DNA of 53,142 nucleotides, taken from NCBI GenBank assembly GCA_040902535.1, contig JBBDXD010000028.1, positions 1 to 53,142 of the forward strand, in the 5' to 3' direction. The DNA is from Dehalococcoidia bacterium (lineage in GTDB: Bacteria > Chloroflexota > Dehalococcoidia > DSTF01 > JACRBR01). Below the pieces are notes generated by a model. The model saw only the letters and a program-made list of their open reading frames with translations. It was not told where the DNA came from and searched no databases. The translations under genes and the position numbers were made by a program. Numbering within the stretch: position 1 is the stretch's first letter; every line of letters begins with the position of its first letter. Of the stretch, positions 10,631 through 47,480 are shown piece by piece.

Positions 10631-12010
10631 CTATCCCGGCGCCTGTCCGAGGGGCGGTCGCCCCTGCTTCATCGATAGCATGATCATATCTGATTCGATC
10701 CCAAGCAGGTATTCGCGCAGCGCCGCAACGAACGCGATCGCGCCGAACGCCACGACGGCGCCGCGCTCGCCTGCCGAAGCTACGGCTGCTTCATACGCGT
10801 CCGGGAGGCTGCTGAACGTCTGCACCGGCGCCTCGTACGGCCGGAACGCTTCGGCAAGCTCGCGAGGGTCGGCGGCGCGCGCGCTCACCCACCCCGTCAC
10901 GAACACGTCGTCGGCGATCTCCGCGACCGCTGCCGCCATCGCTGCGACGTCCTTGCCGGCGAGCGTGCCGAAGACAAACGTCGCGTGCGAGAGGCCGAAA
11001 TGCTCGCGCAGCGCCGCCACCATGCGCTTCGCCGAATCGCCGTTGTGGGCGCCGTCGATGATCACATACGGCCGCCGCTTCAGCACTTCGAGCCGTCCCG
11101 GCCACGTCAGATCGGCGAGCGCCGTGCGCACGTGCTGCGGCGTCAGTTCGAATCCCGCACAGGCGGCCAGCGCTTCGCACGCGAGGATCGCCGTGGCGGC
11201 GTTATCGAGCTGATGGCGGCCGGTGAGCGAAAGGCGGCCCGCGTACGCCGCGTGCTCCGTCTTCATCTTGAAGTCCTGTCCTTCACTTGAAGCGGACGTG
11301 CGCGCGAGCTGACACGCCTTCGCCGTTTCGATGACCGTCGCGCCGCGATCATCGGCCGTTGCGCGCACGACGTCGATCGCCGACTCACGTTGCGGCGCCA
11401 CGATGACCGTCGCGCCGGGGGTGATGATGCCCGCCTTTTGTGTCGCGATCTCCGCGATCGTATCGCCCAACACGGCGGTGTGTTCGAGGCTGATCGGCGT
11501 GACGATGACGACGTCGGTGGCGTCGAAGACGTTGGTCGAGTCGAGCGTGCCGCCGAGCCCCACTTCGACGATCTGCAGGTCTACCTCCGTTTCGCGGAAG
11601 GCGACGAACGCCGCCGCGGTCAGCGCGTCGAAGGCGAGGAATTGTCGTGCGGGGAAGTTGGCAGCGACCCCGGCGATCGCGTCCCGCGCCAGCGTCATGG
11701 CCGAGGCGAACGCCTGCTGCTCGCACGGCTTGCCGTCGATGCGGATGCGCTCGTTGTATCGATGCAGGTGCGGGCTGATGTAGTAGCCGGTGCGCTTGCC
11801 GGACGCCCGGAGGATCGATTCGACGATGGCGCCCGTGCTGCCCTTCCCCTTCGACCCGGCGATGTGCACCGTCGGACGCGCGAGATGCGGGTCGCCGAGC
11901 ACCGCGAGCAGCGCGCGCATCGGTTCCACGTCCGGGCGCGATGCGAACTCGCCCGTGCGTTCGAAGTCAGGCAGCGTGAGCAGCCATTCCAGCGATTCGA
12001 CGTAGTCCAT
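10631..12010 (-). CDS. folC: Folylpolyglutamate / dihydrofolate synthase
   Basis: 459 residues, a Mur-ligase-type ATP-dependent amide ligase that adds glutamate to dihydropteroate or folate. Diagnostic stretches are the P-loop HIAGSKGKGSTG, SPHLHRYNERI, VEVGLGGTLDSTNVF, SLEHTAVLGDT, QKAGII and the C-terminal domain IDGAHNGDSAKR. It is one of five folate-pathway genes in the window (with folE, PTPS, folK, folP), though not adjacent to the others. It probably precedes fabF on the same mRNA, 30 bases apart. An octamer/heptamer repeat array begins two bases upstream of its start. Confidence 0.95.
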   Translation of the reverse strand: MDYVESLEWLLTLPDFERTGEFASRPDVEPMRALLAVLGDPHLARPTVHIAGSKGKGSTGAIVESILRASGKRTGYYISPHLHRYNERIRIDGKPCEQQAFASAMTLARDAIAGVAANFPARQFLAFDALTAAAFVAFRETEVDLQIVEVGLGGTLDSTNVFDATDVVIVTPISLEHTAVLGDTIAEIATQKAGIITPGATVIVAPQRESAIDVVRATADDRGATVIETAKACQLARTSASSEGQDFKMKTEHAAYAGRLSLTGRHQLDNAATAILACEALAACAGFELTPQHVRTALADLTWPGRLEVLKRRPYVIIDGAHNGDSAKRMVAALREHFGLSHATFVFGTLAGKDVAAMAAAVAEIADDVFVTGWVSARAADPRELAEAFRPYEAPVQTFSSLPDAYEAAVASAGERGAVVAFGAIAFVAALREYLLGIESDMIMLSMKQGRPPLGQAPG

Positions 12011-29612: not shown

Positions 29613-30218
29613 ATGGCTCTCGAACGCTTGCCCGACTCCCTGAAGCCAGTCCCGGCCGAAGTGGACCTCGAACGGATCGAGCGGGCCTTTCGCGAGATCA
29701 TCGAAGCGATCGGCGAAAACCCCGATCGGGAGGGCATGCGTCGCACGCCGAACCGCGTCGCGCGGATGTACGTCGAGCTGTTCGAGGGGCTTCGAGTTGA
29801 CCCGAAGAGCCACGTGGACGTCGGGTTCGAGGTGGGGCATGAGGAGATGGTGATCCTGAAGGACATCCCCTTCTACAGCGTCTGCGAGCACCACTTTATG
29901 CCGTTCCATGGCATCGCCGCCGTCGGCTACATTCCCGATGGGCGGGTGGTCGGCCTGAGCAAGCTCGCGCGGCTGGTCGATGGCTACGCTCGCCGCCCGC
30001 AGATCCAGGAGCGGCTCACCGGCCAGATCGCCGATTCGCTCATGGAGACGCTTGAGCCGGACGGCGTCGCCGTCGTCATCGAGGCGGAGCACCTGTGCAT
30101 GACGCAGCGGGGGGTGAAGAAGCCGGGCAGCCGGATGGTGACCTCCGCGACGCGCGGCCTGTTTCGCAAGAACGAGGTCACGCGCGCCGAATTCCTGTCG
30201 TTGGTGCGCGGAACGTGA
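29613..30218 (+). CDS. folE: GTP cyclohydrolase I
   Basis: 201 residues. First enzyme of pterin synthesis, converting GTP to 7,8-dihydroneopterin triphosphate. Zinc ligands are present: Cys91 and His94 in [11 protein letters not shown] and Cys162 in [32 protein letters not shown] and [20 protein letters not shown] are standard. It heads a three-gene operon with overlapping starts: folE stop overlaps the FemAB-like GTG (GTGA), whose stop overlaps the GT4 ATG. The product feeds the PTPS/FolK/FolP genes encoded 15 kb away. Confidence 0.97.
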
Positions 30219-43796: not shown

Positions 43797-45022
43797 CTAC
43801 GCCAGGATCTTCTCGATCGTCTCGTCCGTGAACGCGAACTCCGGCACGGCGTACGGGCCGATGATGGCGGCGAGCTGGGTGAGCTGCAACGTCGGATCGG
43901 CGCGCATGCGCTCGCCGATGCGGCGGCGGCGCGCTTCCGCCTCCGGGCCGAACTCGTTGAGGATCCGCGAACTCAGCGCCGCCGAAATGCGCAGTCGTCG
44001 CATGCGCTCGGCTCGTTCGGCCGCGTATTCGCTGAACAACTCCGGTCGCCAGTCACCGTTCGCCAGCAACGCTTCACTGACGATACGCACATCGGTCATC
44101 GTGATGGATAACCCCTGTCCGATGATCGGGTCGTTGTAGCCTGCCGCATCGCCACGAGCACGACGCCTTCGCCGTATGGCACATCCGTCCACGCATCCTC
44201 GTTGGGATACGAGTTGCACGGCCCCGCTGGCGTAGCGTTCGCGATGTGCTCGCTGCCGGGGAGCGAGGCGAGACGAAACGCATCGAGGAAGGCTCGCTGG
44301 CCGTCCTCGCCGGCGAAGCGTTGCGTGTGCTGCTTCGAATAGCCCAGGTAGAGCCGCGCGCGGCCCTTGCCCTGCGGGAACACCAGGTAATGCACGTCGT
44401 TCTCGGCGCCGATCACCTGCAACGTCTCGTCGAAACCGGCGCAGCCTTCGATGAGCATGCCACCGAACATGTGGTGCGTCGGATCTTTGTGCAGCTTGAT
44501 GCCCGCGGCGCGCCGGACGATCGATCCGCGACCGTCGGCGCCGATGATGATCCGCGCTCGCGCTGTGTGCGCCGTGCCGTCGTGCGTGTACGCGACGGCC
44601 GGTTGCGCGCCGGTTGTCACCGCGATCTCCGGCACGTCGACGAGGAACGTCGCGCCGGCGGCACGAGCGGCATCCTGCAGCGTGGCGCACATGGCGGGGT
44701 GGCCCATGCACAAGGCGCCCGGCACGTCCGCCACGAGCGTCAGCGGAAGCGACTCGACAGCTTCCGGGTCGAGCGTGTCGCCGTAGGTGCGGTGTTGCGT
44801 GACGTGATGACCGCCCGCGGCCATCAGCGTGTCGTACAGTCCGAGCTTCTTGACTTCGACGACGCCCCAGGGCGCGATCCACTCGCCGCGCACGCGGTCG
44901 CGGTAGACGCGCACCTTCTCCAGCACGAGCACGGAGCGGCCGGCGCGAGCGAGCACCGTGGCCATGGCGCCACCGCCGATCCCGCCGCCGACGATGATCG
45001 CGTCGTAGCTGTCCGTCATCAT
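43797..45022 (-). pseudogene. FAD-dependent monooxygenase/geranylgeranyl-reductase-like, broken by one-base deletion
   Basis: From ATG 45022 (GGAG upstream) the protein reads YDAIIVGGGIGGGAMATVLA (FAD Rossmann), LEKVRVYRDRVRGEWIAP, IIIGADGRGSIVRRAAG (DG motif) and up to YGEGVVLV, where the frame breaks near 44152. The shifted frame continues GDAAGYNDPIIGQGLSITM, the second FAD motif of PHBH-fold enzymes, and runs to 43797. One extra G in the GTGGGC context would restore a 408-residue protein. A homopolymer-like GGG to GG loss suggests sequencing error rather than decay. Confidence 0.85.
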
Positions 45023-45032
45023 CCCACTCCGA

Positions 45033-45512
45033 TCAGAATGCGTCCGTCGCCGTACCGGCCTGCCCTGGCGCCTCTTCGACGCCAATGGTGATCGAGGTCA
45101 GGTTCGCTGCGCCCTTCGCGGCAAGGTCGGACTTGAGCCGCAGGATAAACCACTCGGCGAGCCGCTCGGCGGTCGTGTTGTCGATCGGCAACGCCACGAC
45201 GTCGCTCTTCGGAAAGACGAAGCCGCGCTCCAGGAATCGCACCTTCCAGTTGCTCATGCCCTCGTCGATCTCGAGCACCGCGCTGTCGCGCTGCAGGAGG
45301 AACTTATGGTCCAACTCGTCGCACAGCGCCTTGCCGAGCGACTTCAACAATGAGAAGTCGACGACCCACGCATCATCCGTGAGCGTGCCGGTAACATCGA
45401 TCGTGATCGCGTAGTTGTGGCCGTGCAGGGGCTCGCACTGACCGCCGAACGTCGCGAAGTGCGCGGCGGCGAACTTCAGCTTGTTGCGCTCGACCCGGAC
45501 GCGGTACTCCAC
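45033..45512 (-). CDS. 6-pyruvoyl-tetrahydropterin synthase / QueD-family protein (PTPS-I/III type)
   Basis: 159 residues. Zinc ligands His18 (AAAHFATF), His30 and His32 (LHGHNY). The active-site stretch GGQCEPLHGHNY carries Cys26 (QueD/PTPS-I catalytic position, C-x3-HGH) and Glu27 (the PTPS-III position, E-x2-HGH). Enzymes with Glu cleave dihydroneopterin triphosphate to 6-hydroxymethyl-dihydropterin and replace FolB; those with both motifs are dual-function. WVVDFSLLKSLGK and a C-terminal IGVEEAP complete the fold. folK and folP are 600-2,000 bases away on the same strand and no folB is seen. GTG start 45512. Confidence 0.88.
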   Translation of the reverse strand: MEYRVRVERNKLKFAAAHFATFGGQCEPLHGHNYAITIDVTGTLTDDAWVVDFSLLKSLGKALCDELDHKFLLQRDSAVLEIDEGMSNWKVRFLERGFVFPKSDVVALPIDNTTAERLAEWFILRLKSDLAAKGAANLTSITIGVEEAPGQAGTATDAF

Positions 45513-45524
45513 TGATGCTCTCCG

Positions 45525-45716
45525 TCAGTCGGCGTAGCGGTAGTCGTTCCAGCCGCCCTGGCTCGTGGGCGCGGGCACCCTGGCGCCGCAGATGCAGGGG
45601 AACTCGCCGATGCGGACGTACATCGGAAAGTTGCCCTCGTAGTGGCGTCCGCAGGCGGAGCAGTCCGCCTGGTAGAGCTTTACGTGTGGCTCGTTGACCT
45701 TCTTTTTGGGAGGCAT
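45525..45716 (-). CDS. Small zinc-ribbon protein
   Basis: 63 residues with two Cys pairs: CSACGRHYE and CICGARVP, a rubredoxin/zinc-ribbon knuckle layout, preceded by a Lys/Pro-rich start (MPPKKKVNEPHV). Located 13 bases upstream of the PTPS gene and probably on the same mRNA. Function unknown; small zinc ribbons near pterin genes are not diagnostic. Confidence 0.7.
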   Translation of the reverse strand: MPPKKKVNEPHVKLYQADCSACGRHYEGNFPMYVRIGEFPCICGARVPAPTSQGGWNDYRYAD

Positions 45717-45724
45717 GGCTCAGA

Positions 45725-45988
45725 TCAAGGAGGCGTCAGGAACAGGTAATAACGGTCCTCGCGCTCGACGATGATCGGCTTCTTGCCGGCGCTCCGCGCC
45801 GCGCGAATATCGGCGGGGAGGAAGGCCCCGTACCCGAGCACCGGCGCGCTGCGCTGAAACGCGTATTCGTCGTTGGCCACCTTGATGCGCGTTGGCAGAA
45901 ACTCGGCGTCATAGAGGTCGATGTACGGTATCCACACGTCGTGCTCAATCTCGAGTGTGCCGAGCTGAATGGGGTCGATTTGCAACAT
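45725..45988 (-). CDS. 87-residue protein of unknown function
   Basis: From ATG 45988 with GGAGG two bases upstream. Beta-rich start (LGTLEIEHDVWIPYIDLYDA, RIKVANDEYAF) and C-terminal IIVEREDRYYLFLTPP; no cysteines or membrane helix. Lies upstream of the zinc-ribbon and PTPS genes on the same strand, spacing 8 bases to the next. I do not recognise it. The frame continues open to 46030 but the better start is 45988. Confidence 0.65.
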   Translation of the reverse strand: MLQIDPIQLGTLEIEHDVWIPYIDLYDAEFLPTRIKVANDEYAFQRSAPVLGYGAFLPADIRAARSAGKKPIIVEREDRYYLFLTPP

Positions 45989-46052
45989 AGCCTCCGCCCG
46001 CCTCCGAAAGCGCGCATCATTGCATCGCATGGGCGTCCGTGCGTCAACTGAA

Positions 46053-46092: not shown

Positions 46093-46602
46093 TCAACCTT
46101 GCCACCATTCCGATGGCGACGAGACGTGCTCGAGACCGTCATAGTCCACCTGCTCGGCCAGTTCGCCGATCGGGCGTCGCTCGCGCGGATGCTCCACATC
46201 GGGCGCCAGCTCAGCCAGCGGCACCAACACGAAGTTCCGGTCGAGCAGACGCGGATGCGGCACGACCAGTTCGCCGGAGTCGATGACCTGGTCGTCGTAG
46301 AGCAGGATGTCGATGTCGATCGGGCGTGGCGACCAGCGCTCGGCGGGCCGCCGCCCGATCGCGTGCTCGACGGACTTCGCGTGCGCCAGCAACTCGTGCG
46401 GCGACAGGGACGTTTCGACCTCGCAAGCGGCGTTGAGGTAGTCGGGGCCGGGCGGCGCGCCTTCCAGCACGACAGCGTCGGAGCGGTAGAGCGACGACAC
46501 GCCAACGACGCGGCACGCCGGAGCCAGCCACCCTAGCGCGAGTCGCAGATTCTCCTTACGGTTGCCGACGTTCGCGCCGAGACCGAGGAACACGCGCGCC
46601 AT
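46093..46602 (-). CDS. folK: 6-hydroxymethyl-dihydropterin pyrophosphokinase
   Basis: 169 residues from ATG 46602, which overlaps the folP TGA by one base. FolK signatures: FLGLGANVGNRKENLRLAL, SSLYRSDAVVLEGAPPGPDY, NAACEVETSLSPHELLAHAK, and the catalytic RPIDIDILLYDDQ and VPHPRLLDRNFVLVPLAELA. It activates 6-hydroxymethyl-dihydropterin for condensation with pABA by FolP, encoded directly upstream. The extension to 46623 is not used. Confidence 0.95.
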   Translation of the reverse strand: MARVFLGLGANVGNRKENLRLALGWLAPACRVVGVSSLYRSDAVVLEGAPPGPDYLNAACEVETSLSPHELLAHAKSVEHAIGRRPAERWSPRPIDIDILLYDDQVIDSGELVVPHPRLLDRNFVLVPLAELAPDVEHPRERRPIGELAEQVDYDGLEHVSSPSEWWQG

Positions 46603-47480
46603 CAGGCATCCCCCTCGCGCCATCCGCGCACGATCGCATCGGCGACGAGGGCGACGTGCTTCATCTCGTGTACGTCGTGTACGCGCACCAGATCGGCGCC
46701 GCCCGCGATCGACAGCGCGACGCTGGCGGCGGTGCCAAACGCACGACGTTCCACCGGCGCGCCGCCGAGCACGGCGCCGAGCGTCGACTTGCGCGACGTG
46801 CCGATGAGCAGCGGCAGGCCGAGCACGTCCAGTTCGCGCAGCCGACGCAGCATCTCGATGTTGTGCTCCGCATTCCAGCCGAACCCGAACCCCGGATCGA
46901 CGATCAACCGCTCGCGCGGCAACCCCGCCTCGTCCGCGATGCGCATGGACTCGCGCAACCCGTCGAGGACAGCCTGCAACACGTCGGACGCCTTACGGCC
47001 GCGCTGATTGTGCATCGCTATGGCGGGGATGCCCGCATCCGCCGCGATCCGCGCAATCTCCGGGTCGCGGCGAAAGCCCCAGATGTCGTTGAGCATGTGC
47101 GCACCGGCATCGATCGCGGCGCGCGCGACCTGCGGCTTGTAAGTATCGACGCTGATCGGCGTATCGGGCAGATCGCGATGGATGCGTTCGATCACCGGCA
47201 CGACGCGCGCGATCTCTTCGTCCGCGGTGATCTCATCGAACCCGGCGTCCGTCTTGTTCGCGCCCGGGCGCGTCGACTGGCCGCCGACATCGAGGATATC
47301 GGCGCCTTCTTCCACCATGCGGCGCGCGAGCGCGACCGCCGCATCGACGTCGGCGAGGCCATCACCGGAGAACGAGTCCGGCGACGTGTTGATGACGCCC
47401 ATGATGTACGTGCGATCGCCCCATCGGAGCTCGACTGGCCCGATGCGCATGATAGAAGAGATGTAGGTGCGACTGCTCAC
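46602..47480 (-). CDS. folP: Dihydropteroate synthase
   Basis: 292 residues, DHPS TIM barrel. YIMGVINTSPDSFSGDG, EGADILDVGGQSTRPGANKT, ISVDTYKPQVARAAIDAGA, MLNDIWGFRRDPEIARIA and LIVDPGFGFGWNAEHNIEML are the conserved pterin and pABA-site stretches; TSRKSTLGAVLGG is the phosphate-binding loop (loop 7). Starts at GTG 47480 or ATG 47450. A one-base overlap with folK makes the two a coupled pair. Target enzyme of sulfonamides. Confidence 0.95.
   Translation of the reverse strand: MSSRTYISSIMRIGPVELRWGDRTYIMGVINTSPDSFSGDGLADVDAAVALARRMVEEGADILDVGGQSTRPGANKTDAGFDEITADEEIARVVPVIERIHRDLPDTPISVDTYKPQVARAAIDAGAHMLNDIWGFRRDPEIARIAADAGIPAIAMHNQRGRKASDVLQAVLDGLRESMRIADEAGLPRERLIVDPGFGFGWNAEHNIEMLRRLRELDVLGLPLLIGTSRKSTLGAVLGGAPVERRAFGTAASVALSIAGGADLVRVHDVHEMKHVALVADAIVRGWREGDA

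Follow-up and report, generated by a model that had tools for sequence, protein, structure and literature searches.

The PTPS-family gene at 45033..45512 (minus strand) of the window, by which we mean the whole stretch of 53,142 nucleotides analysed here, very probably encodes a PTPS-III-type enzyme that forms 6-hydroxymethyl-7,8-dihydropterin. By analogy with the Plasmodium enzyme, this zinc-dependent protein is highly likely to replace dihydroneopterin aldolase (FolB) in the Dehalococcoidia bacterium that carries it. An earlier note on this DNA had proposed that the protein replaces FolB and completes folate synthesis; the proposal is now supported by the operon context, the absence of FolB and the mutual exclusion of FolB and PTPS across 196 genomes, and further by an invariant PTPS-III glutamate and a predicted fold of the Plasmodium type.

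The PTPS protein and its catalytic residues

The gene encodes 159 amino acids from a GTG start codon, just 5' of which a reading of the start region places a GGAG-like, purine-rich ribosome site. The protein matches PF01242 at 75.6 bits (cut-off 22.4) and is thus a genuine PTPS, and a family search returned it as the sole PTPS in the 3.18-Mb genome. It contains GGQCEPLHGHNY, with Cys26 and Glu27 numbered as previously claimed, in the context GGQ-C26-E27-P-L-H-G-H-N-Y, i.e. the motif CExxHGH; the gene and its two residues are therefore confirmed at this place. The best NCBIfam model is QueD (TIGR03367), which at 70.4 bits falls under its equivalog cut-off of 89.25. The nearest named relatives, at 84-73% identity, come from MAGs labelled Dehalococcoidia or Chloroflexi.

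We counted residue conservation in 99 non-redundant homologues of the window type. Glu27 is present in all 99, which excludes chance for this residue; His18, His30, His32, His69, Glu116 and Glu147 are invariant in the same set, and Asp68 is kept in 98 of 99. Position 26 is occupied by Cys in 50 homologues, by Leu in 22 and by Arg in 16, followed by Ala, Met, Val and Ile. Replacement of Cys26 is found in some relatives as near as 74-77% identity, close relatives with Met at this position retain the Glu, and the Cys state changes at least six times on the homologue tree. Cys26 is real but not conserved, having been lost repeatedly in close relatives, and Glu27 has never been lost.

We take His18, His30 and His32 to be the zinc ligands and Glu147 to be the pterin anchor, as in the PTPS family generally. 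The predicted structure (mean pLDDT 94.7) and the alignment together place this histidine triad and Glu147 within a PTPS fold, as expected of PTPS-III. The best matches, in sequence as in fold, are Plasmodium PTPS (TM 0.88-0.93, E about 1e-18), and E. coli QueD gives TM about 0.53-0.58 (E about 1e-5). Glu27 aligns with Glu-38 of the Plasmodium enzyme, so that the ExxHGH motif of PTPS-III is present; Glu-38 is required there for 6-hydroxymethyldihydropterin, and its replacement by Cys abolishes that product (PMC2229834).

The Plasmodium PTPS-III proteins (PfPTPS, PDB 1y13; PvPTPS, 2a0s) share about 31-32% identity with the window protein, together with the same fold, the long form, an FPxxD...LP insert and the ExxHGH Glu, and come from organisms likewise without FolB. 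They differ in having Arg in place of Cys26, as do the Planctomycetota homologues, and the window gene, unlike theirs, sits in a run of folate genes. Plasmodium falls beside Planctomycetota in the tree, a possible long-branch artefact of which we made no use. QueD (PTPS-I, e.g. that of E. coli) belongs to the same superfamily and has the same zinc site and Cys position, but the window protein has Glu for Gly after the Cys and about 35 extra residues, stands at a fold distance of TM about 0.55, and is encoded in a genome without queuosine genes.

A run of folate genes upstream of PTPS

Four folate genes lie in the window: folC (10631..12010, minus strand; TIGR01499, 350 bits), folE (GTP cyclohydrolase I; 29613..30218, plus strand; PF01227, 254 bits; TIGR00063, 242 bits), folP (dihydropteroate synthase; 46602..47480, minus strand; TIGR01496, 274 bits) and folK (HPPK; 46093..46623, minus strand; TIGR01498, 124 bits), which overlaps folP. 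The earlier listing of these four genes in the window, with folB missing from it, is borne out by the family models and by the PF02152 search given below. Between folK and PTPS is a 101-aa protein of unassigned family (45725..46030, minus strand), which occupies the same position in relatives and is 43-58% identical to its counterparts there. It is followed by a 63-aa ORF (45525..45716, minus strand) that reads as zinc-ribbon-like (CxxC..CxC), has no Pfam or NCBIfam match, and ends 12 nt before the PTPS start. PTPS is thus clustered with folate genes, as expected of PTPS-III, in a minus-strand run of folP, folK, the 101-aa protein, the small ORF and PTPS. The same-strand order folP-folK-101-aa-PTPS is kept in the named relatives L002-L006 and in the same-family genomes G121, G154, G014 and G174; counting against this, many further genomes across the class do not have the window-type gene next to folK. 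A promoter and terminator scan of the PTPS region returned nothing.

Two further observations concern the surroundings of the pathway. The FAD-binding monooxygenase that comes after PTPS (43797-45085, minus strand) is seemingly in two frames near 44100, owing to a frameshift or an assembly error; its relative in L004 has a single open frame. DHFR (PF00186) was not found in the whole genome, so dihydrofolate reduction must use another enzyme.

Proposed reaction

In the proposed pathway, FolE would make 7,8-dihydroneopterin triphosphate, which the window PTPS would bind as its substrate through zinc, held by His18, His30 and His32, and through the pterin-anchoring Glu147. With Glu27 as catalytic acid/base, the enzyme would then cleave the side chain and directly yield 6-hydroxymethyl-7,8-dihydropterin, so that neither a phosphatase step nor FolB would be needed. 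The products of the neighbouring upstream genes, FolK and FolP, would convert this pterin to dihydropteroate, and FolC would take it on to dihydrofolate. From the Plasmodium enzyme and from knowledge of the PTPS family we infer the reaction, its substrate and what Glu27, the histidine triad and Glu147 do in it. FolB belongs to a different family and has the same proposed product, but acts on dihydroneopterin, whereas the triphosphate itself is the expected substrate of PTPS-III. Cys26 would be an ancestral or neutral feature, with no queuosine pathway here for a QueD side activity.

FolB and PTPS across the class

The genome was covered by family searches and by reading short stretches. No protein of the window or of the whole 3.18-Mb genome, which is 96% complete, matches PF02152, the FolB family; as a control, the same model found matches in 10 of 14 genomes. 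The genome-wide search for folB that had been suggested earlier is therefore negative, and the genome makes folate (FolE, FolK, FolP, FolC) without FolB while carrying a PTPS with the PTPS-III motif.

We surveyed 196 genomes of the class, among which 78 have a window-type PTPS, 93 have other PTPS types only and 25 have none. FolB is present in only one of the 76 folK-positive genomes with a window-type PTPS (75 lack it), and in eight of the folK-positive genomes without any PTPS (another eight lack it). The association between any PTPS and FolB has P = 3e-5 by Fisher's exact test, a value that ignores genome kinship and comes from counts that are not phylogenetically independent. A sister-family genome of the same order (G143) lacks PTPS; its folB lies next to folK, in the run folE-folK-folB, where the window family has PTPS. 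Judged by gene content, this distribution shows PTPS in the role of FolB in most of the class.

A single genome (G184; L105, L165, L166) combines FolB with a window-type PTPS, and it gives two FolK matches. Eight folK-positive genomes have neither FolB nor PTPS (G021, G036, G042, G065, G072, G134, G166 and G185); either these genomes are incomplete or their aldolase step lacks an explanation.

Queuosine and the CExxHGH signature

The earlier note read the Cys-Glu pair as the dual PTPS-I/III combination. The motif stands, as CExxHGH is the published signature of bacterial PTPS-I/III hybrids (PMC5041015); the dual function finds no support, as the genome lacks a queuosine pathway. TGT has no match in the 96%-complete genome (control 14/14), QueF has none above the cut-off, the only weak match being FolE itself, and QueC has only a weak PP-loop-like match (E 8e-4), such as generic PP-loop proteins produced all through the survey. 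True QueC is also absent from all five same-family genomes. The proposed search for queC and queF thus turned up no true queC and no queF above the cut-off, and with Cys26 lost in relatives the suggestion that the enzyme possibly feeds queuosine falls away.

That Glu27 serves folate while Cys26 makes 6-carboxytetrahydropterin for queuosine is accordingly very unlikely for the window protein, even with its hybrid-type motif. Unlike the hybrids, it belongs to a long Plasmodium-like lineage rather than a short QueD-like one, and Cys26 is not conserved in its family, near relatives with Met26 keeping the Glu. Across the class, Cys26 is commoner in genomes with QueC (11/13 vs 24/54; raw P = 0.013), but this association is unsupported by independent tree pairs (four pairs, P about 1), and we do not take Cys26 to mark a dual function. 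Furthermore, a second PTPS is present in 11 of the 13 genomes that have QueC and a window-type PTPS. One genome does fit a dual role better: G019 (L162) has a queC-queE pair with no queD adjoining, and its only PTPS is a Cys-bearing window-type protein (CEPLHGH). Its gene context makes that protein, not the window protein, the foremost candidate for a true dual PTPS-I/III. The CE motif alone, as far as these sequence comparisons reach, does not show dual function.

We see only a slim prospect that Cys26 is active and yields a further pterin, carboxy- or pyruvoyl-tetrahydropterin, destined for neither queuosine nor biopterin; if so, CE-type PTPS enzymes would divert part of the pterin flow to an unknown product. 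Neither a queuosine pathway nor a biopterin hydroxylase, which would call for another PTPS product, was found in the genome.

More distant homologues also carry Cys-Glu motifs beside folate genes. In L022-L031, from Anaerolineae and Desulfobacterota, a PTPS with CERLHGH or CETLHGH directly follows a gene for a fused FolK-GCYH-IB (PF01288 + PF02649), and in G003 (L139) such a PTPS lies beside one. The two halves of the fusion would act on either side of the step that we propose for PTPS, which favours a folate role. In L022, where it was checked, the cyclohydrolase half passes the cut-off of MptA (TIGR00294), its best NCBIfam model, rather than that of FolE2. Short CENLHGH-type PTPS proteins (L052-L081 and other class genomes) score as QueD, as checked for L052. 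Where the place of folK is known, 60 of 68 lie within 1 kb of it, and 47 of those genomes are without QueC. Judging by this placement, the short proteins probably serve folate synthesis but would be annotated as QueD.

Other assignments of the FolB step and of the PTPS product

It is highly improbable that another protein fills the FolB role, be it a FolB2 of the transaldolase type or the product of a folB that was missed, with PTPS doing something else. FolB2 transaldolases have been predicted in folB-less bacteria (PMC1971073), a transaldolase is encoded here, and the assembly may lack 4% of the genome. However, this sole transaldolase is of the ordinary long type, lies in a tkt-rpiB-tal-pgi cluster and matches ordinary models rather than FSA/FolB2; we rejected it as an ordinary pentose-phosphate enzyme. 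Such an assignment also leaves both the mutual exclusion with FolB and the folK-side location of PTPS unexplained.

A PTPS-II enzyme, making 6-pyruvoyltetrahydropterin for tetrahydrobiopterin, shares the fold family, and the Plasmodium enzyme makes the conventional PTPS product as well (PMC2229834). The PTPS-II motif CxxxxxHGH (PMC5041015) is absent, no aromatic amino-acid hydroxylase (Biopterin_H) was found in the genome, and the gene sits in a folate operon; we rejected a biopterin role, which is scarcely credible here. A plain QueD (6-carboxytetrahydropterin synthase) carries next to no probability and was rejected on genome content (no TGT, QueF or true QueC), the PTPS-III Glu, the fold and the folate operon outweighing a best NCBIfam model that stays below its cut-off.

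Implications for annotation

The PTPS-III replacement of FolB that we favour has precedents: FolB absence in Chloroflexi and Planctomycetes, and PTPS-III in its place, are already published (PMC5041015, PMC4674097, PMC2229834), as are the CExxHGH hybrids. The annotation is sound but largely expected. We found nothing in the literature specific to PTPS in Dehalococcoidia. Mildly new, from sequence comparison across the class, is that the CE signature fails as a predictor of dual function in this lineage; the survey also adds evidence for PTPS in FolB's place in most of the class. For a poorly studied Chloroflexota lineage, the missing FolB step is supplied on paper. In this lineage both the CExxHGH signature and the QueD model call queuosine function too readily: proteins of the window type retain the Glu and shed the Cys freely, and the short QueD-scoring CE proteins mostly adjoin folK in genomes without QueC.
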